A DNA stretch of 64,000 nt from an uncultured Bacteroidales bacterium. GTDB lineage: Bacteria > Bacteroidota > Bacteroidia > Bacteroidales > UBA932. A program made the translations under genes and the position numbers. The stretch covers positions 1 to 64,000 of the forward strand of contig ONQC01000009.1 of the NCBI GenBank assembly GCA_900319855.1, read 5' to 3'. The notes under the pieces were generated by a model. It saw only the letters and a program-made list of their open reading frames with translations. It did no database searches and was not told the origin of the DNA. Each line of letters opens with the position of its first letter. Position 1 is the first letter of the stretch. This document shows, in pieces, positions 49,769 to 59,791 of this stretch.

Positions 49769-49799
49769 GGAAAGGCCAACCCGGAGGCTGGCCTTTTCC
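49769..49799 (-). terminator. Terminator after icd
   Basis: Stem AAAGGCCA/TGGCCTTT with a ten-base GC-rich loop. On the minus strand it follows the icd stop and ends the citrate operon. Confidence 0.8.
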
Positions 49800-49818: not shown

Positions 49819-51030
49819 TTAGCAGCCGAGGCGCTTTTCGAGGTTGGAGCGGATCTCGCGGAGGAACTGCAGGGACGTCAGGGCGCGCGGAGCGTAGCCG
49901 TCCATCAGGTTCACGAGGTCCTTGGTCACGAGCTCTTCACCGAGGGTGTCGAAGCAGGCGGCCTCGAGCTGGTTGGCGTAGTTGACCAGTTCCGGGAGGT
50001 TGTCCAGTTCACCGCGCTTGCGGAAGGCGCCGCTCCAGGCGAAGATGGTCGCCATCGGGTTGGTGGAGGTCTCCTCACCCTTCAGGTACTTGTAGTAGTG
50101 ACGGGTCACGGTGCCGTGGGCCGCCTCATACTCGTACTTGCCGTCCGGGCTGACGAGCACGGAGGTCATCATGGCCAGGGAACCGAAGGCGGTGGAGACC
50201 ATGTCGGACATCACGTCGCCGTCGTAGTTCTTGCAAGCCCAGATGAAACCGCCTTCAGAGCGCATGACGCGGGCGACGGCATCGTCGATCAGGGTGTAGA
50301 AGTACTCGATGCCGGCGGCCTCGAAAGCGTCCTTATACTCCTGGTAGACTTCCTCGAAGATGGCCTTGAAACGGCCGTCGTACTTCTTGGAGATGGTGTC
50401 CTTGGTCGCGAACCAGAGGGTCTGCTTCACGTCGAGCGCGTATTTGAAGCAGGAGTGGGCGAAGCTGCGGATCGAAGCGTCGGTGTTGTGCATGCCTTCG
50501 ATGACGCCGGGGCCCTTGAACTCATGGATCACCATTTCCTCGCGCTTGCCGCTGACGCCTTCGAAGACGAGCTTGGCGACACCGGGCTCGGTGGTCTGGA
50601 TCTCGACATCACGGTAGACGTCGCCATAGGCATGACGGGCGATGGTGATCGGTTTCTTCCAGAATTTCACGGCCGGATGGATGGTCGGGATGGTGATCGG
50701 GGTGCGGAAAACGGTACCGTCGAGCATGGCGCGGATGGTGCCGTTCGGGCTCTTCCACATCTCGTGGAGGTTGTATTCGCTCATGCGCTGGACGTTCGGG
50801 GTGATGGTCGCGCACTTGACGGCGACACCCAGACGCTTGGTCGCGTTGGCAGAATCGATGGTCACCTGGTCCGCGGTCTTGTCGCGGTTCGGCAGGCCGA
50901 GGTCATAATATTCGGTCTTCAGGTCGACGAAGGGAAGGATGAGCTCATCCTTGATCATCTGCCAAAGGATCCGGGTCATTTCATCGCCGTCCATTTCGAC
51001 GAGCGGGGTGGTCATTTTGATTTTTTCCAT
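49819..51030 (-). CDS. icd: NADP-dependent isocitrate dehydrogenase (eukaryote-like type)
   Basis: 403-residue enzyme interconverting isocitrate plus NADP+ with 2-oxoglutarate, CO2 and NADPH. It belongs to the type II, eukaryote-like IDH group: SPNGTIRAMLDGTVFR near 97-112 binds isocitrate, and HGTVTRHYYKY near 310-320 carries the Arg-His that selects NADP. The type is reversible in principle. Last gene of the citrate operon, four bases after the aconitase gene and just before a terminator. Confidence 0.97.
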   Translation of the reverse strand: MEKIKMTTPLVEMDGDEMTRILWQMIKDELILPFVDLKTEYYDLGLPNRDKTADQVTIDSANATKRLGVAVKCATITPNVQRMSEYNLHEMWKSPNGTIRAMLDGTVFRTPITIPTIHPAVKFWKKPITIARHAYGDVYRDVEIQTTEPGVAKLVFEGVSGKREEMVIHEFKGPGVIEGMHNTDASIRSFAHSCFKYALDVKQTLWFATKDTISKKYDGRFKAIFEEVYQEYKDAFEAAGIEYFYTLIDDAVARVMRSEGGFIWACKNYDGDVMSDMVSTAFGSLAMMTSVLVSPDGKYEYEAAHGTVTRHYYKYLKGEETSTNPMATIFAWSGAFRKRGELDNLPELVNYANQLEAACFDTLGEELVTKDLVNLMDGYAPRALTSLQFLREIRSNLEKRLGC

Positions 51031-51034
51031 GGTG

Positions 51035-53275
51035 TTATTTGCGGTTTTTGTAATAATTCATGAGGCAGCCGTCGGCGAGGATCTCGCGCTCCGCGGCGGT
51101 CAGGTTCTGGAAATACAGGTGGATCGGGTGGATACCGTCCTTGGCGATCACGCAGGCATCGATTTCTTCGGCGCCGCCCAGGATGGCCCGGCGGATGCCC
51201 GGGATGAACACGAAGTCGCCGGGCTGGTAGTCGAAGGCCGTTTCGGGAGCGATCGTAAAGGGCACGATACCCCAGTTGATACAGTTGCTGCGATAGCGCT
51301 TGGTCGCATACTCGTAGCAGATGTTGGCGTCGCCGCCGAGCACCTTCTGGCAGGAAGCGGCCTGCTCGCGGGCGGAACCGTCACCCGGCTTGTTCGCGAA
51401 GACGCAGGAGCCGAAGGAAGTCTCCTTGGGATCGGCATCGACCTTGGCGAGGGCTTCGGCCACATGGGCGGGCACCCTGCCGGCGCGGCGCTGGAGGTCT
51501 TCGGACTGGATACGCTTGCTCAGGCCCACGTACTCAGGGACGCGGCGGCTGAGGGCGAACTCGGAGAGTTTCAGCGGGTTGGAACGGTAGCTGGAGGTCT
51601 CGCCGGACGGGATCAGCTCGTCGGTCGTGGTCACCGGGTCATGGATGACGGCGGCCAGCTCGACCAGCATGTTGTCCTGCATCGGATACATCTTCGGCCA
51701 GTCCTTGATGTTCGGGCCATAGCGCAGTTCGACGGAAAGGTCGGCCTTGCCGAAACCGTTGTAGATACGGCTCTTGTAGATCCGGTCGTCGAATTCATAA
51801 CCCTTGTGGGTATCGGTATATTCGATATCGGTCGCCGCCGTGATGACGCCGCCGTTCGCCGCGGTGGCGGCGATGGAACGGGCATCCATCAGGGAGACAA
51901 GGGAAATCTGACCCTGGCCCGGCTTGGAACCTTCACGGTTCGGGAAGTTACGGGTGGTATGGCGGATGGAGAAACCGTTGTTGGACGGTACGTCGCCGGC
52001 GCCGAAGCAAGGGCCGCAGAAGGCCGGCTTGATCACGACGCCCGCCTCGAGGAGTTCCTCGGCGATGTGGTTGCGGGTGGTGGCGAGGTAGACCGGAGTA
52101 GACTGCGGATAGGCGCTCATCGTGAAGTAATCGTTGCCGATGGACTTGCCCTTCAGGATGGTAGCCGCCTCGCTGAGGTTGTCATAGGTACCGCCGGAGC
52201 AGCCGGCGATGATGCCCTGGTCCGCGACGACCTTGCCGTCCTTGATCTTGCTGAGCAGGTCGATCTGGATCTTGTCGCCGAAACGCTTGCGGGCGTCAGC
52301 CTCGACGGCGCCGAGGATGCCTTCCGGATCCGCCTGCAACTCGTGGATAGTCACGGCGTTGGACGGGTGGAACGGCAGGGCGATCATGCTCTCCTGGGTG
52401 GAGAGGTCGATGCGGATCATGCTGTCGTAATAGGCGACTTTGCCCGGTTCAAGCTTCTTGTAAGCCTCCGGACGGCGGTGCATTTCGAAGTATTCCTTGA
52501 CCTTGTCGTCTGTGATCCAGATGGAGCTGAGGCAGGTGGTTTCGGTCGTCATGACATCGATGCCGTTGCGGAAGTCGATGGGCAGGTCGGCCACGCCGGG
52601 GCCGGCGAATTCCAGGACCTTGTTCTTGACGAAACCGCTCTCGAAGACGGCCTTGACCAGGGAAATGGCGACGTCATGCGGGCCGATGCCGTGGCGCGGC
52701 TTGCCTTCGAGCCAGACGAGAACCACTTCCGGGGCGTTGATGTCCCAGGTATTGCGGAGCAGCTGCTTGACCAGTTCGCCGCCGCCTTCGCCCACGCCCA
52801 TGTTGCCCAGGGAGCCGTAGCGGGTATGGCTGTCGGAACCGAGGATCATGTTGCCGCATTTCGTGAGGGCCTCGCGGGCATACTGGTGGATGACCGCCTG
52901 GTTGGCCGGCACATAGATACCGCCATACTTCTTGGCGGCGGACAGGCCGAAGACATGGTCATCCTCATTGATGGTGCCACCGACCGCGCACAGGGAATTG
53001 TGGCAGTTGGTCATCGCATACGGGAGCGGGAACTTCTCGAGGCCGCTCGCACGGGCGGTCTGGATGATGCCCACGTAGGTGATGTCATGGGAAACCATCG
53101 CATCGAAACGGATGCGCATCTTCTTTCCCTTGCTGCCGTCCACGTCGTGGGCACGGAGGATTCCGTAGGTGATGGTGTTTTCGCGGGACTCATCCGGAGA
53201 TGGCAGGCCGGACGGATCGGAGACGATCCGGTTTCCGTCCAAAAGGTACACACCGTGTGGAATCAATTCAACCAT
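51035..53275 (-). CDS. acnA: Aconitate hydratase (mitochondrial-type aconitase)
   Basis: 746-residue iron-sulfur enzyme interconverting citrate and isocitrate. Cluster cysteines are in GIIAGCSGGTYDN near 358 and in FCGPCFGAGDVPSN near 421. The swivel domain (about 560-746) contains SFGSCVFANKPGDGSAREQAA. A size near 750 fits the mitochondrial/Bacteroidota group rather than the larger AcnA or AcnB forms, so the symbol is approximate. It lies 27 bases after the citC-citG gene and four bases before icd, inside the citrate operon. Confidence 0.94.
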   Translation of the reverse strand: MVELIPHGVYLLDGNRIVSDPSGLPSPDESRENTITYGILRAHDVDGSKGKKMRIRFDAMVSHDITYVGIIQTARASGLEKFPLPYAMTNCHNSLCAVGGTINEDDHVFGLSAAKKYGGIYVPANQAVIHQYAREALTKCGNMILGSDSHTRYGSLGNMGVGEGGGELVKQLLRNTWDINAPEVVLVWLEGKPRHGIGPHDVAISLVKAVFESGFVKNKVLEFAGPGVADLPIDFRNGIDVMTTETTCLSSIWITDDKVKEYFEMHRRPEAYKKLEPGKVAYYDSMIRIDLSTQESMIALPFHPSNAVTIHELQADPEGILGAVEADARKRFGDKIQIDLLSKIKDGKVVADQGIIAGCSGGTYDNLSEAATILKGKSIGNDYFTMSAYPQSTPVYLATTRNHIAEELLEAGVVIKPAFCGPCFGAGDVPSNNGFSIRHTTRNFPNREGSKPGQGQISLVSLMDARSIAATAANGGVITAATDIEYTDTHKGYEFDDRIYKSRIYNGFGKADLSVELRYGPNIKDWPKMYPMQDNMLVELAAVIHDPVTTTDELIPSGETSSYRSNPLKLSEFALSRRVPEYVGLSKRIQSEDLQRRAGRVPAHVAEALAKVDADPKETSFGSCVFANKPGDGSAREQAASCQKVLGGDANICYEYATKRYRSNCINWGIVPFTIAPETAFDYQPGDFVFIPGIRRAILGGAEEIDACVIAKDGIHPIHLYFQNLTAAEREILADGCLMNYYKNRK

Positions 53276-53302
53276 AACAGATTGTGTTTAAAAGTTAATG
53301 AT

Positions 53303-55066
53303 TTAAGTGTTTATCAGGAGATCGGCATAGACCGTCAGCGCGAGCATGTCCGCACTACCACCGGGAGACACCCGCTCGGATACCATCCGATCATTCATTT
53401 CTTTCAGTTTTTCCAGGCTGAAATCCGCCAAGAGCGCGGCGGCCTCCGCCTTCAGTTCCTGCGCCCTGTGGAAACCGGCCCGGTGGATGACGCAGGTATC
53501 ATCCAGGGTCATGATGATCCGCAGCAGGGTCTTCTGCAGACCGTATTCTTCCGTCTTGACGGATTGCCAGAAAGGCAACCAGTCTTCGAACAGTTCCCGG
53601 TAGCCGCCGCGCGCCATGTCCATGGCACCCTTGACGGCATACCGCTTCACGGCAGCCGTTCCATGGGTTTCCCGGTCCACGACCCCTTCCTGCGCGGACA
53701 GGTCGTCTGCCAGAGAGCCGATCTGCTGCGACAGGCGTTCCGGCAGCAACACTCCTTCCTCTTTCAACTCCTTGCCGGCGGCCACGGCCATCAGGCCCAG
53801 GGCGAACAGGGCGCCGCGGTGGGTGTTGACCCCGCCGGTGGCCCGGAGCATGTCCCGCTCCGCATCCTGACCGTATCGGACCAGGTCGCTGGCCCAGACG
53901 GCGGTGTGTTCCCGGCCCAGGGCACCCAGGCGGATCAGCCAGGGCCGAAGGGCTTCGATGCTGCGGAGCATCGTGCCGTAATCCATATCGTCATGGCTTC
54001 CGGCACTGTCCGGACAGACCATGCCGGGCTTGCAAGGCGCATCCAACTCGGCACGCAGGGCGGCACAAGCCACATCGCCGATCAGGTACCAGGGCGCCCG
54101 GTCCGGGCAGAAAAGCGCGGCTTCCCGCCACTTCCCGGCATCCAGCAACGCCCGCACGGCGGAGGCCGAAACCGGACGGCCGCCCATTTCCAGACGGGGG
54201 ATTTCCCGGACCTCCATGTCATAGCCGCCCAGCACTTCCCGCATCAGGGCATTGTACCGCGCCGTCATCGGATCCAGGGGCTCGCTGCCCACGAAACGGA
54301 TCCAGGCCCGGAGCGCCGGAGCGACATGGCGTCCGAACACATCCAGGTCCAGCCGCATCTGCTGCTCAGCGACTTCGTCGAGATTTTTCAGGAAATAGGA
54401 CGGGAACGTGGCCGGAGAAATGCAGTAGTCCCGGCCTTCCAGGACGGTGACATTGTCCAGGCGATAGCAAGTCCCCTGCACGAGGTTGAAACGGGAACGG
54501 GCGGGGAAACGGGACCGGTCTCCGCCCAGGACGATGACATAAAGGGTATCCACCTGGGCTGCCGCCTGTTCGATCAGGTACAAGTGCCCCAGGGTCATCG
54601 GGTCGGCGTTCATGACGATTACGCCGCTGCGGCCTTCCATCCGGCGCTCGGACAGGTAGCTGCCGTAATCCTGCAGGCCCCTTCCGTTTTCCATCAGGAG
54701 TGCCTTCGGCGCCTTCCCGACCAGACGGAATCCCAGGTCGGTGAAGATCGCTTCATTCTCAGGCTTGGTGAACACCTTGACATTCTGGTGGCCGGCCTCG
54801 GCCGCCAGTGTCAAAAGATGCGAGACCAGCCGGCCCATCAGTCCTTCGCCCCGAAGGGATTCGGAAACGGCCAGGCATTGGATGATATCGCCCATCAGTC
54901 CCCCGCCGGCCAGGATCTCGTCGGATCCTTCGCGCGTCAGCACGACATACCGGTCCACCGGCTCCAGCCGCAGACCGTTCTCCGCCAGGAAAGCCTCAAC
55001 CTTCCGGCGGAACATGCCGACCGAAAGCGGCATGTCGCTGATCACGTACTCACCCGACATAGGCAT
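53303..55066 (-). CDS. Fused citrate lyase ligase (CitC) and triphosphoribosyl-dephospho-CoA synthase (CitG)
   Basis: 587-residue fusion. N-terminal half (about 1-325): a GNAT-like domain, then a nucleotidyltransferase domain (VIVMNADPMTLGHLYLIEQAA near 149-169), the layout of CitC, which acetylates the prosthetic thiol of citrate lyase with acetate and ATP. C-terminal half (about 330-587): a CitG domain with CKPGMVCPDSAGSHDDMDY, ATGGVNTHRGALF near 410 and SPGGSADMLALTVYADLL at the end. It makes the 2'-(5''-triphosphoribosyl)-3'-dephospho-CoA precursor. The more familiar fusion is CitX-CitG; here CitX is separate. The start overlaps citX by 17 bases, and a second in-frame ATG (55060) lies within the overlap. 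Confidence 0.9.
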   Translation of the reverse strand: MPMSGEYVISDMPLSVGMFRRKVEAFLAENGLRLEPVDRYVVLTREGSDEILAGGGLMGDIIQCLAVSESLRGEGLMGRLVSHLLTLAAEAGHQNVKVFTKPENEAIFTDLGFRLVGKAPKALLMENGRGLQDYGSYLSERRMEGRSGVIVMNADPMTLGHLYLIEQAAAQVDTLYVIVLGGDRSRFPARSRFNLVQGTCYRLDNVTVLEGRDYCISPATFPSYFLKNLDEVAEQQMRLDLDVFGRHVAPALRAWIRFVGSEPLDPMTARYNALMREVLGGYDMEVREIPRLEMGGRPVSASAVRALLDAGKWREAALFCPDRAPWYLIGDVACAALRAELDAPCKPGMVCPDSAGSHDDMDYGTMLRSIEALRPWLIRLGALGREHTAVWASDLVRYGQDAERDMLRATGGVNTHRGALFALGLMAVAAGKELKEEGVLLPERLSQQIGSLADDLSAQEGVVDRETHGTAAVKRYAVKGAMDMARGGYRELFEDWLPFWQSVKTEEYGLQKTLLRIIMTLDDTCVIHRAGFHRAQELKAEAAALLADFSLEKLKEMNDRMVSERVSPGGSADMLALTVYADLLINT

Positions 55067-55553
55067 CGATCATTTCCCCGATCCGCGCCATCAGTTCCTC
55101 GCGGGTGTGCGTATGGTTCCGCATGCACCAGCGGGCTTCCCGGTCGCAAAGCAGGCAGCGGCGCGGCGCCAGGCCGATATCGGCCCGGGATACCGGCTCC
55201 CCTGCCCGGGTCATCACGTCCAGGTCGAACAAACGGCCCAGTGGATGGGTTTCTTCAATATGGCAAACTGCCCGCTTCGCCTCCAGCGGGGAGAGCGAAG
55301 TGAGCAGGTACGCTTCATATCCGGTGGCCAGATCCCGCACCTGCATGGCGGTCATATCGCTGCCGAAACGGGCGATGAGGGCGGACAGGGCGGCCTGGGC
55401 CACGATGAGGGATTGGGTATTCCGCTTGACGCTCCCGGGCATGACCACCGTCAGGCATACGAGGGTTTTCCCCGGATACCGGCGGAGCAGTTCATCCTGG
55501 AAGTCCCGGCGGGCCTCACGGGAGGCCAGCAGCTCGTCAAGCGATATCTCCAT
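55050..55553 (-). CDS. citX: Apo-citrate lyase phosphoribosyl-dephospho-CoA transferase
   Basis: 167-residue enzyme that attaches the phosphoribosyl-dephospho-CoA group to a serine of the acyl carrier subunit CitD. The family motif HPLGRLFDLDVMT is near 104-116, followed by RRCLLCDREARWCMRNHTH near 130-149 with its cysteine pattern. The start lies one base after the citF stop. The end overlaps citC-citG. Confidence 0.93.
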   Translation of the reverse strand: MEISLDELLASREARRDFQDELLRRYPGKTLVCLTVVMPGSVKRNTQSLIVAQAALSALIARFGSDMTAMQVRDLATGYEAYLLTSLSPLEAKRAVCHIEETHPLGRLFDLDVMTRAGEPVSRADIGLAPRRCLLCDREARWCMRNHTHTREELMARIGEMIDAYVG

Positions 55554-55554
55554 G

Positions 55555-56976
55555 CTAGTCTACGATGTTGTAGATCTTGTCGAGGACCTTTCCATGACGG
55601 TCCATCACGATGCCGACGACCTTGTCACCGAACGGCAGGGCATCCGGAGTCCCGATGATGGAAGAGGCCTTGGCGGCCAGGTCGTGGATGTCAACCACCT
55701 TGAGACCGGCTTCTTTCAGGCGCTCGGCGATCTCCGGACGGGCCGGATTGACGGCGATGCCGTATTCGGTCACGACCACGTCGACTCCCTTGCCCGGGGT
55801 GATCAGGGTGGTCACCTTCGGCACGACGCACGGGATGCGGCCGCGCAGCAGCGGGCAGACGATGATGGAGAGGGCGCTGTCTTCGGCCGTATCCGGATGG
55901 CCGCCGATGGCGCCGCGGATGATGCCGTCGGAGCCGACGAGGACGTTGACATTGAAGTTCACGTCAACCTCGAGGGCGGACAGGATCACGATGTCCAGGG
56001 CATGCACGGCGGAACCGGCATGGTCGGCGCTGGCATACTCGACGGAAGATACTTCCTGGTGCATCTGGTCGCGGGCGATGGACTCGGCGGCGACCTTGTC
56101 GAAGGACTGGACGTCAATCAGGCGGCCGATCAGGCCTTCCTCATGGAGTTTCACCATATGGGCGGTGATGCCGCCGAGGGCGAAACTGGCCTTGATGCCC
56201 TTCTCGATCATGCTCTCGCGGATGAACTTCACGGCCGCCAGGGAGGCGCCGCCGGTTCCGGTCTGGATGGAGAAGCCATCCTTGAAATACCCGCTGTTGA
56301 TGATCACTTTCGCAGCCTGCTGGGCGAGCAGGATGTCGCGCGGGTTCTTTGAGTCGCGGATGGCGCCGGAAGAGATCTTGGAGCTGTCACCCACGGAATC
56401 CACCACGACGACGGACTCCACATCGCAGGCGGAGATGGACTTCGGCACGTTCGGATAAGCCACCAGGTCGTCGGTGATGACGACCACATGGTCGGCATAG
56501 CGGGCATCCGGCAGGGCGTAGCCCAGGGAGCCGCAGATGGACTTGGCATTCTCGCTGCGCGGGCAGCCGGAGGCATTGCCCAGTTCATCGCAGGAAGAGG
56601 CGCCGAGGAAGGCGACGTCGATATGGAGTTCCCCGCTGGCGATAGCGCTGCCGCGGCCGCCGTGGCTGCGGAAGACCACCGGTTCGGCCATCAGGCCGTG
56701 GGAGATTTCATTGGCGAGTTCGCCGCGCAGACCGGAGGTGGAAATCTTCGTGATGACGCCGTTCTTGATATGGTCGATCAGCGGCGCGTGCACGTCGGAA
56801 AGGCTGGAAGCCGCCAGGTGCAGGTTCTTGAAGCCCATTTCGGCCAGTTTGCCGACCACCAGGTTGACGACCTTGTCACCGCCGCGGAAGTGGTGGTGGA
56901 AGGAGATGGTCATGCCGTCTTTCAGGCCGGATTTGCGGATGGCCTCTTCGAGGCTCATGACTTTCGATGTTCTCAT
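55555..56976 (-). CDS. citF: Citrate lyase alpha subunit (citrate CoA-transferase)
   Basis: 473-residue subunit that swaps the acetyl group on the CitD prosthetic thiol for citrate. Landmarks are ISFHHHFRGGDKVVNLV near 25-41, SHGGRGSAIASGELHIDVAFLGA near 103-125, TGTGGASLAAVKFI near 237-250 and VTEYGIAVNPARPE near 410. It is slightly shorter than the roughly 500 residues of enteric CitF. The ATG overlaps the citE stop (ATGA), and citX follows one base after the stop. Confidence 0.95.
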   Translation of the reverse strand: MRTSKVMSLEEAIRKSGLKDGMTISFHHHFRGGDKVVNLVVGKLAEMGFKNLHLAASSLSDVHAPLIDHIKNGVITKISTSGLRGELANEISHGLMAEPVVFRSHGGRGSAIASGELHIDVAFLGASSCDELGNASGCPRSENAKSICGSLGYALPDARYADHVVVITDDLVAYPNVPKSISACDVESVVVVDSVGDSSKISSGAIRDSKNPRDILLAQQAAKVIINSGYFKDGFSIQTGTGGASLAAVKFIRESMIEKGIKASFALGGITAHMVKLHEEGLIGRLIDVQSFDKVAAESIARDQMHQEVSSVEYASADHAGSAVHALDIVILSALEVDVNFNVNVLVGSDGIIRGAIGGHPDTAEDSALSIIVCPLLRGRIPCVVPKVTTLITPGKGVDVVVTEYGIAVNPARPEIAERLKEAGLKVVDIHDLAAKASSIIGTPDALPFGDKVVGIVMDRHGKVLDKIYNIVD

Positions 56977-57863
56977 AGTACGTCCTCCTTGTTCAAAATA
57001 CCGGATGCGATGGCGAGCTGGATGGTGCGCTCAGCGCGGATAACGACCGGACGGTCGACCATCTTGCCGTTCACGGCGATGACGCCGGAGCCCTTGGCCT
57101 GGGCCTCCTTGATGGCGGCGATGATGCGCAGGGCCTTGTCGATGGCTTTCTGCGTCGGGGTGAACACGGAATTGACGACCTCGATCTGGCGGGGATTGAT
57201 GATGGACTTGCCGTCGAAACCGAGGGTCTTGATCAGTTCGACCTCCTTGCGGAAGGTTTCCATGTCGTCCAGGTTGGAATAGACCGTATCGAAGCAGCAG
57301 ATGCCGGCGGCGCGGGCGGCCACGACGATGGTCTCGCGGGCCAGCAACAGCTCGGAGCCTTCCGGGGTACGCTGGGTCTTAAGGTTGGCACTGTAGTCTT
57401 CGGCGCCGAGTGCGATGCCCATCATGCGCTTGGAAGCGGTCGCGATGGCATAGGCGTTGACCACGCCGAGGGCGCTCTCGATGGCGGCCATGATCTGGGT
57501 GCGGCCGACACAGCCGAGTTCCTCCTCGACCTTGATGATCTCGGCCTCGAGTTCGCGGACCTCATCGGCGGTCTCGGTCTTCGGCATACGGATCACGTCG
57601 ACGCCGGCCTTGACGACGGCCTCGACATCCTTCTTGCCATAAGGGGTGTTCAGGGGGTTGATGCGCACCACCATCTCGGTATCCCCGTAGTCGATGGATT
57701 TCAGCGCATTGTGGACGAGCAGGCGGGCGGCGTCCTTTTCCGCCATGGTCACGGAGTCCTCCAGGTCGAGCATGATCGAGTCCGGACCATAAATATGGGC
57801 ATCTGCCATCATTCCGGGATTGTTGCCCGGAACGAACATCATGGTTCTGCGTAATCTTTCCAT
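56973..57863 (-). CDS. citE: Citrate lyase beta subunit (citryl lyase)
   Basis: 296-residue TIM-barrel lyase that splits citryl-thioester into acetyl-thioester and oxaloacetate. Landmarks are RRTMMFVPGNNPGMM near 5-19, DSIMLDLEDSVTMAEKD near 28-44, VVRINPLNTPYG, MAAIESALGVVNA, ALGAEDYSANL and FDGKSIINPRQIE. The ATG at 57863 is chosen; the 13 codons before it in frame are citD-citE spacer. Because citD, citF, citX and citC-citG are all present, it is a true citrate lyase subunit, not a stand-alone CitE-like enzyme. Confidence 0.96.
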   Translation of the reverse strand: MERLRRTMMFVPGNNPGMMADAHIYGPDSIMLDLEDSVTMAEKDAARLLVHNALKSIDYGDTEMVVRINPLNTPYGKKDVEAVVKAGVDVIRMPKTETADEVRELEAEIIKVEEELGCVGRTQIMAAIESALGVVNAYAIATASKRMMGIALGAEDYSANLKTQRTPEGSELLLARETIVVAARAAGICCFDTVYSNLDDMETFRKEVELIKTLGFDGKSIINPRQIEVVNSVFTPTQKAIDKALRIIAAIKEAQAKGSGVIAVNGKMVDRPVVIRAERTIQLAIASGILNKEDVL

Positions 57864-57873
57864 AGTCTTCCGT

Positions 57874-58152
57874 TTATTTCCAGACATCCTTGCCGGTGGC
57901 ACGGACCGCCGCAGCGGTTACGCGCGCCCGGATGGTGCAGTCCAGCGCACCCTTGTCCACGGCCTTGACATCGGCCTTGTCGATTCCGAGGCCTTCCAGG
58001 GTCTCGGTGATGACCTTCTTGATCTGATTCCCGAACTGGGCCGCCACGGAGCTGGTCAGTTCGATATGCAGGCCGGCTTCTTCCCGCGGGGCGATCTGGA
58101 CCATGATGTCCCCGGATTCGAGCGTTCCTGCAGATGCGTTTTTCATTTCCAT
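57874..58152 (-). CDS. citD: Citrate lyase acyl carrier protein (gamma subunit)
   Basis: 92-residue carrier of the phosphoribosyl-dephospho-CoA arm. The attachment serine is in AGTLESGD (Ser13 from this start, Ser14 in the Klebsiella protein). The rest shows the LDCTIRARVTAA beta segment of the family. It is the first gene of the operon. ATG 58152 is used; MKNAS two codons later is possible. The promoter is 55 bases upstream. Confidence 0.95.
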   Translation of the reverse strand: MEMKNASAGTLESGDIMVQIAPREEAGLHIELTSSVAAQFGNQIKKVITETLEGLGIDKADVKAVDKGALDCTIRARVTAAAVRATGKDVWK

Positions 58153-58207: not shown

Positions 58208-58215
58208 CAAAATTA
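58208..58215 (-). promoter_or_regulatory. -7 element of the citrate operon
   Basis: The minus strand reads TAATTTTG, matching TAnnTTTG, 55 bases before citD. Just downstream, at about 58184-58199, lies an AT-rich imperfect palindrome around AACGTT (ttttaacgttttaa), placed where a repressor could block initiation. No regulator gene is adjacent. Confidence 0.55.
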
Positions 58216-58270: not shown

Positions 58271-59791
58271 CTATTCTTCCGTAATATCGGAAGCGGCGAG
58301 TTCCCGCGGGATGACAGACTCCGGTCCGGCCAGCCGGGCGCCGGTCTTGATCTTGGCATTGGAGCGCTTCGGGGCCAGCCCAAGTTTCTCCAGTTTGCCG
58401 ATCTTCTTGACGACGCTCTGGTTGGAATCCGTCAGTTTTTTCTTGGATTCTTCATACGCCGCCGCCGCTTTCCCCAGGTGCTCGCCGAGCTTGACATAGC
58501 TGTCCATCCAGCCCTTGAGCTGGCCCATCAGTTCTTCGGCGGTCTTGTAGACATCGGCGATGTTCTTTTCCTGCTCATGCTGCTTCCAAGCCATCTGGAT
58601 CATGTTCAGCACGATGATCAGGGTCATCTGGCTGACGATCAGCACCCGGTTGTCCTTGGCCACCTGCCAGAGCATCGGATCGGCCTCGAGCATCAACCGG
58701 AAAGCGCCCTCGACCGGGATGAACATGATGTTGAATTCCACCTTGCGGCGCCCGTCCGGGATATAAGAGGCATAGTCCTTCCCCTTGAGTTCATCCACAT
58801 GGGAACGGACGCTGGCGACATGGGCCTTGGCCAGCCGGGTCCGTTCTTCGACGGTCGAGGCCAGCAGGTACTGGTTGTAGGCGGTCAGGCTCACTTTGGA
58901 GTCAATGATGACCGTCGTGTCATCCGGATAATAGACCATGACATCGGGGATCAGCGTCCGGCCGTCGGCCGACTTAATCTCGTGGCCCGATGCGTCGGTC
59001 ATGACCCCCTGGGTAAAGAAATGCACGCCTTCGGTCAGGCCGGCATTCTTCAGGACATCGGTCAGGAGCATTTCCCCGAAATCGCCCTGGACCTTGGAAT
59101 AGCCCGTCAGGGCATTGGCCAGGTTGCGGGCCTCATCGGAGACGGCCTGCGACCGGTTGTCCAGGTCCACAATCTTCTGTTCCAGCTTGTTATGCCGCTC
59201 CATGGTCTTTTCCTGCGATTCCTTGACGGCCTCGCTGAAGGCCTGAAATTTTTCCTGGACCGGCTTGAGCAGTTCGGAAATCGTCTCGGCGCTGCGGACC
59301 TTGAAGGTCTCGGAATTGCGGCTCGTCAGGTTTTCGAAGACCTCGCGCATCTGCTGCAGTTCCTTCGCATGCTGTTCAGCCATCGCCTTCTGCTCTTTCT
59401 CATGGCGCTCCGCCGCCTCGCGGCGTTCGCGCTCGCGGGCCTCTTCGAGCTGACGCTCGTACTCCTCGCGCGCCTTCAGGCGACTCTCAACGCCCGCTTT
59501 TTCCTCTTTCAGCGCCGCCAGCTGGTCCTGCAGGCCATCCTTCGCCGCTTCATATTGACGGACGAGATCCGCTTTCTGGCTCTCCGCATCCTTCAGCAGT
59601 CCTTCCTTCTCCGCGGCGTGCTGGCGCAACAGGTCATCCCGCTCTGCCGCATGCTGCTGCAGAAGCTCGGTGCGCTGCCGGTTGCTCCGGGACTGGAGCA
59701 GGAATAGGACGACGACGGCGGCAATGACGACAAGCGCCAGGACCAATATCAATATCAACGTAAGCGTATCCATTTGCTGCATTTCATTCAT
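58271..59791 (-). CDS. rmuC: RmuC-family DNA recombination protein
   Basis: 506-residue protein with an N-terminal membrane helix (about 10-33), a long coiled coil (about 35-225, highly charged with Gln, Glu, Arg and Ala), and the RmuC nuclease-like domain (about 230-430: GYSKVQGDFGEMLLTDVLKNAGL, PDVMVYYPDDTTVIIDSKVSL, FIPVEGAFRLMLE). RmuC limits inversions at short inverted repeats in E. coli. A promoter TATCTTTG lies only four bases before ATG 59791. Confidence 0.93.
   Translation of the reverse strand: MNEMQQMDTLTLILILVLALVVIAAVVVLFLLQSRSNRQRTELLQQHAAERDDLLRQHAAEKEGLLKDAESQKADLVRQYEAAKDGLQDQLAALKEEKAGVESRLKAREEYERQLEEARERERREAAERHEKEQKAMAEQHAKELQQMREVFENLTSRNSETFKVRSAETISELLKPVQEKFQAFSEAVKESQEKTMERHNKLEQKIVDLDNRSQAVSDEARNLANALTGYSKVQGDFGEMLLTDVLKNAGLTEGVHFFTQGVMTDASGHEIKSADGRTLIPDVMVYYPDDTTVIIDSKVSLTAYNQYLLASTVEERTRLAKAHVASVRSHVDELKGKDYASYIPDGRRKVEFNIMFIPVEGAFRLMLEADPMLWQVAKDNRVLIVSQMTLIIVLNMIQMAWKQHEQEKNIADVYKTAEELMGQLKGWMDSYVKLGEHLGKAAAAYEESKKKLTDSNQSVVKKIGKLEKLGLAPKRSNAKIKTGARLAGPESVIPRELAASDITEE

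Follow-up and report, generated by a model that had tools for sequence, protein, structure and literature searches.

The stretch of DNA analysed here (the window) comprises 64,000 nucleotides of contig ONQC01000009.1, from the genome of an uncultured Bacteroidales bacterium (the source genome). On its minus strand, from 58152 to 49819, lies an operon in which citrate lyase genes are joined to genes for an aconitase and an isocitrate dehydrogenase (IDH). Its features, in order of transcription, are as follows.

58208..58215, minus strand: TAnnTTTG, possible -7 element of the Bacteroidales type, 63 bases upstream of citD; weak
57874..58152, minus strand: citD, citrate lyase acyl carrier protein (ACP), 92 amino acids; TIGR01608, 108 bits, cut-off 63.5
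56973..57863, minus strand: citE, citrate lyase beta subunit; TIGR01588, 465 bits, cut-off 443
55555..56976, minus strand: citF, citrate lyase alpha subunit, 473 amino acids; TIGR01584, 691 bits, over cut-off
55050..55553, minus strand: citX, holo-ACP synthase for CitD; TIGR03124, 159 bits, cut-off 105
53303..55066, minus strand: citC-citG fusion, acetate:ACP ligase plus triphosphoribosyl-dephospho-CoA synthase, 587 amino acids; TIGR00124 and PF01874
51035..53275, minus strand: YbhJ-type (PRK11413) aconitase gene (acn), 746 amino acids; PRK11413 'hydratase', 1182 bits, over cut-off
49819..51030, minus strand: icd, NADP-type isocitrate dehydrogenase, 403 amino acids; PRK08299, 630 bits, and TIGR00127, 527 bits, both over cut-off
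49771..49796, minus strand: terminator-like hairpin of 11 pairs after icd; consensus scan only

We confirmed that this seven-gene set is genuine. Open reading frame (ORF) lists and family models place the genes as claimed in the initial annotation, whose description of seven minus-strand genes with gaps of at most 27 bases and several overlaps agrees with our coordinates and with spacings, in operon order, of +10, -4, +1, -17, +27 and +4 bases. These spacings take ATG 57863 as the citE start; the mechanical GTG start at 57902 would run into citD, and the in-frame ATG gives +10. The TIGR01588 match starts at residue 16 of the GTG ORF. One promoter and one terminator had also been claimed. The terminator is matched by the hairpin, whereas the promoter is only weakly supported: the octamer TAnnTTTG, which we take to be the Bacteroidales -7 consensus, also arises in 115 of 2000 shuffled versions of the 118 bases between citD and its upstream neighbour. 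Neighbouring genes, taken as mechanical ORFs, are rmuC upstream (58271-59791) and a C1-type peptidase gene downstream.

The alpha, beta and ACP subunits of the ATP-independent citrate lyase complex all exceed curated cut-offs. The maturation set is also present, with CitX and CitC recognised by NCBIfam and CitG by its Pfam cut-off. Within the fusion, the CitC half covers residues 21-327 (TIGR00124, 272 bits, cut-off 262) and the CitG half residues 331-581 (PF01874, 200 bits against a cut-off of 27); the latter scores under the NCBIfam CitG and MdcB equivalog cut-offs. Family scores for all parts thus bear out the initial proposal of a complete, maturable citrate lyase where citrate synthase stands elsewhere. 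The nearest solved chains to CitF are 1xr4 and 2hj0, and the best solved relative of the icd product is 4aou (622 bits), which we take to be a clostridial structure. CitF has about 473 amino acids in most genus loci fetched, the window locus (55555-56976) included, and 507-512 in L091, L135 and L141 (mechanical ORF start), about 35 residues longer than in most.

The aconitase differs in type from the one that accompanies citrate synthase in the genus, a point that the initial annotation had not noticed. It is the sole PF00330 match in the source genome (272 bits) and scores well short of the cut-offs set for AcnA, AcnB and mitochondrial aconitase (TIGR01340, 111 bits against 825; TIGR01341, 76 against 945; TIGR00117, 18 against 1287). 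Over its full length it shares 54% identity with E. coli YbhJ, which is recorded as a putative hydratase and whose gene adjoins ybhH and ybhI, the latter annotated as a putative tricarboxylate transporter. We aligned the window protein with aconitase 1aco, assuming the usual roles for the aligned residues. C359, C420 and C423 align with what we take to be the three cluster cysteines. Also conserved are the motif GSDSHT, two arginines in RNF..R and, in GSxRE, the serine and the arginine; these are presumably active-site residues. Unlike in 1aco, C91 stands opposite the Asp of a presumed Asp-His pair and A635 opposite one of two serines. The structure model has a mean predicted local distance difference test (pLDDT) score of 75, and its best structure matches are aconitases (template modelling scores 0.62-0.64), which suggests with moderate confidence that the protein has an aconitase fold. 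Several active-site loops have pLDDT below 50, so the active-site comparison is limited to the alignment. The protein therefore belongs to the uncharacterised YbhJ type, and citrate/isocitrate activity is predicted for it.

The source genome is 2.15 Mb in size and 90.9% complete. The initial annotation had proposed searching it for gltA, for 2-oxoglutarate:ferredoxin oxidoreductase (KOR) and for glutamate dehydrogenase (GDH). These searches found no citrate synthase (PF00285) in the 90.9% complete genome, no KorA over cut-off and two GDHs, both of which pass the NADP-specific GDH model. ATP-citrate lyase and citryl-CoA lyase, markers of the reductive tricarboxylic acid cycle, also carry PF00285, and since no such domain was found in the genome, neither was seen. 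The nearest protein to KorA is a VorB, scoring 559 bits as VorB (cut-off 399) and 239 as 2-oxoglutarate synthase alpha (cut-off 579). This 2-oxoacid oxidoreductase adjoins a branched-chain transaminase and a butyrate kinase (L296 619-5960). As a candidate second KOR it was rejected, with a reservation given below, since it scores best as VorB and under the 2-oxoglutarate synthase alpha cut-off.

We surveyed 121 genomes of the genus, 34 with citF (citF+) and 87 without (citF-). KorA (TIGR03710) exceeds its cut-off in 71 genomes, all of them among the 87 citF- and none among the 34 citF+ (p 4e-18, relatedness uncorrected). Three more citF- genomes hold KorA fragments (G012, G080 and G087), of which those in G012 and G087 were scored as present. 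Counted by gene presence, 56 genomes have KorA only, 30 citF only, 15 KorA and gltA, 5 gltA only, 4 citF and gltA, 3 a KorA fragment and 8 none of these. Genomes that lack KorA (whole or fragment), gltA with its own aconitase and citF number 10 of 121, against 29 expected if the three were independent. A VorB-class score is found in the source genome and 15 other citF+ genomes; 18 of the 34 have neither KorA nor such a match.

The exchange can also be seen beside gdh. For at least 39 of the 71 genomes, the distance between KorA and a GDH is no more than about 6 kb. In G026 (L293 3423-7641) the order is bamA-like, ompH-like, korA, korB, gdh and a DASS carrier gene, the first two being names that we assigned from sequence. 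In G066, G114 and the source genome, all three citF+, gdh and the DASS carrier gene follow the ompH-like gene and korAB is missing (compared loci L294 5405-8339, L295 5926-9614 and L289 3278-6982).

Aconitase-family scores in the genus form three classes: LeuC-like at 526-563 bits, near-gltA mostly at 451-495 (fragments lower) and YbhJ-type at 267-280. The YbhJ type occurs in 33 of 34 citF+ and in none of 87 citF- genomes (p 7e-29, relatedness uncorrected). G115 is the citF+ genome without it, and the aconitase of G110 is a fragment of unchecked type. In all fetched genus loci that hold both, acn stands directly after citC-citG, even where citDEF lies elsewhere (G097, G081 and G116).

Citrate synthase occurs in 24 of the 121 genomes. 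Together with an aconitase of its own class, gltA is present in 18 of 87 citF- and in none of 34 citF+ genomes (p 0.003). Since 30 of the 34 citF+ genomes show no citrate synthase, a synthase overlooked through incompleteness is unlikely as a general cause. The gltA of citF+ genomes G016 and G084 adjoins a 425-amino-acid gene resembling phosphonopyruvate decarboxylase, and that of G093 a gene resembling isocitrate dehydrogenase (L035 142-2826, L031 128-2862 and L033 187-2730 hold these three loci); both names are our assumption from the start of each sequence.

Further differences in operon surroundings were seen in individual loci. In G106 (L106 1867-5343), a fucosyltransferase-like gene and a DUF4954 gene are inserted around citX. 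At L117 (11772-15407), genes for a NuoF-like subunit and an [FeFe] hydrogenase stand divergent to the cit operon, and L093 and L116 have ORFs of the same size at that position (a match of size only).

We used rpoB to place the exchange on a phylogeny. It was matched in 79 of 121 genomes, of which 73 entered the first tree and 72 the later ones; short pieces (G004, G025, G108, G128, G135 and G141) were left out, as was G079 from the later trees, its very long branch probably reflecting a wrongly read frame. The tree of 72 genomes requires at least 7 changes in citF. Well-supported branches separate six independent pairs that differ in citF, and in these KOR differs in the opposite direction in 5.0 on average and in the same direction in none. 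The RpoB of the source genome (L284) matches its model in two pieces within an open frame of 1360 amino acids, compared with about 1275-1310 in the full-length relatives listed.

The same aconitase-icd pair occurs in other bacteria. We scanned named genomes with the aconitase alignment and kept 80, the best among at least 592 relatives. Among 30 Bacteroidales-like loci, icd is nearby in 26 and cit genes in 22; among 50 other loci, mostly from Clostridia, icd is nearby in 39, cit genes in 9 and gltA in 2 (L196 and L204, where it stands beside the pair). The order in 8 of the 9 lyase-linked loci outside Bacteroidales is acn-icd-citD and onward, some being ended by a contig edge. L185 is lyase-linked in the Bacteroidales order, and citC was not seen there. 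We then checked citrate synthase genome-wide for 50 of the 80 loci (all 9 lyase-linked, 20 of the 41 other non-Bacteroidales and 21 of the 30 Bacteroidales-like), picked before the result was known, without a fixed rule and favouring sequence on both sides. It was present in 1 of 9 lyase-linked versus 12 of 20 other clostridial genomes (Fisher p 0.02, with completeness unassessed) and in 1 of the 21 Bacteroidales genomes.

L195 and L207 have an HMGL-like gene upstream of acn-icd, with one further ORF between. These genes score 116-121 bits with PF00682 and resemble homocitrate synthases, below cut-off; as a guess, they may encode a Re-citrate synthase. A Re-citrate synthase in the source genome was considered and rejected, its single PF00682 match being weak (E 6.8e-8) compared with the L195 and L207 scores.

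In the aconitase tree, the Bacteroidales proteins fall into a single clade (58 rows, SH-aLRT 99) nested among clostridial proteins. Given this nesting, and given that 4aou is the nearest solved structure to the icd product, the module was probably transferred, with Clostridia as the likely donor. The nesting also weakens the case for an independent origin in the two phyla. The eight lyase-linked clostridial rows still require 5 changes on this tree, in which L191 was scored as not lyase-linked since its cit genes are cut off.

The citrate lyase set replaces KorA in the genus, and citrate synthase stands beside acn-icd in other bacteria. Therefore, the operon is best interpreted as a source of 2-oxoglutarate for glutamate that takes the place of KOR in this lineage, with citrate lyase in the position of citrate synthase and working towards citrate. 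We advance this reading tentatively, at somewhat short of an even chance, and we infer the enzyme activities and the direction from gene content and family membership. From the reactions characteristic of these families, CitC would charge the carrier CitD with acetate, CitE would join acetyl-ACP and oxaloacetate to citryl-ACP, and CitF would free citrate in exchange for free acetate. Isocitrate would then be made from citrate by the YbhJ-type aconitase, and IDH would yield 2-oxoglutarate, CO2 and NADPH, both 2-oxoglutarate and NADPH being consumed by GDH. Citrate lyase would thus form citrate in an acetate-dependent manner, with IDH and GDH drawing the reaction forward where acetate is abundant.

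Published work on Bacteroides bears on the role of KOR. According to passages of PMC11304471, labelling shows that glutamate arises via succinate and not via citrate, i.e. by the KOR route, and the enzyme for this route had not previously been shown in B. fragilis. The same passages report that deletion of kor2AEBG causes a severe growth defect, which a 2-oxoglutarate ester reverses in rich medium.

Several observations weigh against a biosynthetic role for the operon. Cleavage is the known direction of citrate lyase, and exchange with KOR is in principle compatible with either direction. For the reaction acetate + oxaloacetate + ammonium -> glutamate + CO2, assumed constants give a break-even oxaloacetate of 7-34 uM at 80 mM acetate and 10-50 mM glutamate, and of 0.6-332 uM across the constants tried. 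Synthesis therefore needs high acetate and fairly high oxaloacetate; given so wide a range, the reaction could run either way, with synthesis favoured when acetate is abundant. The weakest point of our case is that the VorB-type enzyme might itself make 2-oxoglutarate. Like B. fragilis Kor2 it has separate subunits, and if it makes 2-oxoglutarate then KOR was not lost in the source genome. Deletion of kor1AB in B. fragilis gave no growth defect (passages of PMC11304471).

The genus survey has its own exceptions. Four genomes (G003, G019, G088 and G133) of the 54 that are at least 90% complete have no complete route; either none is strictly needed, then, or there is a further one. On its own, gltA is not exclusive with citF (4 of 34 versus 20 of 87, p 0.21). 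The four genomes with both have aconitases of the YbhJ type only, besides LeuC-like ones, and could form citrate via gltA paired with that aconitase. The exchange between citF and KOR recurs, and the strict pair test is borderline (median p 0.0625). Taking KOR or gltA together gives 5.8 (p 0.031) when the gltA of G003 and G088 is counted and returns to 5.0 (p 0.0625) when it is not. We discount these two because they have no matching aconitase, their sole aconitase-family match being LeuC-like.

The enzymes may instead run reductively: NADPH-dependent carboxylation of glutamate-derived 2-oxoglutarate would be followed by isomerisation to citrate and by its cleavage to acetate and oxaloacetate, the latter passing to succinate as an electron sink. 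This would use citrate lyase in its known direction, the two GDHs could supply 2-oxoglutarate and NADPH, and the chain runs reductively under break-even oxaloacetate. KOR could even be its counterpart, as an alternative sink for 2-oxoglutarate. However, a sink gives no reason why citF never occurs with KorA, why so few genomes are routeless or why citrate synthase stands beside acn-icd in L196 and L204, and we consider it rather unlikely. The initial annotation named both directions, and either may apply; its lean towards a reductive, CO2-fixing sink does not sit well with the absence of KorA from all citF+ genomes or with 2-oxoglutarate formation via succinate in Bacteroides (passages of PMC11304471). 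A two-way valve near equilibrium, connecting acetate and the C4 pool with 2-oxoglutarate according to acetate, oxaloacetate and glutamate levels, would suit the micromolar break-even oxaloacetate obtained under many settings of the assumed constants. As an account of the co-occurrence it has no advantage over the reductive route, and it would surprise us.

Import offers a further explanation: external citrate would be fermented after cleavage to acetate and oxaloacetate, and part of it would be oxidised to 2-oxoglutarate to supply glutamate; the carrier would be encoded elsewhere. The initial annotation reported no citrate transporter or CitAB sensor at the locus, and indeed no transporter or sensor was found among 20 genes tested in or beside the operon at 13 genus loci. 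Ten clostridial neighbour genes tested likewise included no transporter, three having no family match. A carrier search elsewhere in the genome, also proposed, had a divided outcome. CitS-type (2HCT) carriers are absent from all 121 genomes, CitMHS, Tct and other carriers not being covered by the search, whereas DASS carriers, which may or may not take citrate, occur in 116 of 121 genomes and twice in the source genome. Because DASS proteins are near-universal in the genus, citrate import by one of them is conceivable, and the position of E. coli ybhJ beside ybhI points the same way. Yet DASS carriers occur irrespective of citF, and the higher-scoring class represented in the source genome is found in 4 of 34 citF+ genomes. 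We consider import distinctly unlikely.

If the biosynthetic reading holds, citrate lyase may join Si- and Re-citrate synthase as a third class of enzyme that makes citrate in nature, using free acetate, consuming no ATP or CoA per turnover and feeding glutamate in acetate-rich guts. It would have replaced KOR several times in one genus and citrate synthase in Clostridia, with a partner from the aconitase family of the E. coli orphan YbhJ. This wider claim is possible, and we would not quite bet on it. Were it true, an enzyme of citrate breakdown would act biosynthetically in many uncultured gut and rumen bacteria, sparing one acetyl-CoA per glutamate where acetate is plentiful. Metabolic models in which citrate lyase signals citrate fermentation would then misrepresent these bacteria, and the uncharacterised E. 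coli YbhJ would gain a testable function.

The enzymes themselves are already known. Among the matches listed in a search of open-licence PMC articles there was no report of citrate lyase forming citrate for glutamate, nor of the enzyme combination, the aconitase type or the KOR exchange. The name YbhJ occurs in 21 papers, and in neither title nor abstract of the 15 listed; passages of PMC12137691, PMC12016533 and PMC8887013 deal with other enzymes.

Citrate fermenters such as Klebsiella and E. coli use citrate lyase CitDEF with CitC, CitX and CitG. The operon described here has the same subunits and maturation functions by family models; in contrast, no carrier or sensor was seen adjacent to it, CitC and CitG are fused, and aconitase and icd genes belong to the operon. 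ATP-citrate lyase is ATP- and CoA-dependent, whereas the operon's lyase is ACP-bound and acetate-dependent. Both are nevertheless lyases in the place of citrate synthase, and ATP-citrate lyase is used both ways in Desulfobacter hydrogenophilus (passages of PMC7117926). Like the citS-icd-acnA operon of B. fragilis, as described in passages of PMC11304471, the present operon ties aconitase and isocitrate dehydrogenase to an enzyme of the oxaloacetate/citrate step; it differs in its YbhJ-type aconitase, which is separated by score from the near-gltA aconitases of the genus. E. coli YbhJ resembles this aconitase over its full length and has other neighbours, ybhH and ybhI. Finally, korAB beside gdh would have the same proposed role, 2-oxoglutarate for glutamate, and is mutually exclusive with citF in the genus sample, but its chemistry differs, starting from succinyl-CoA with ferredoxin.

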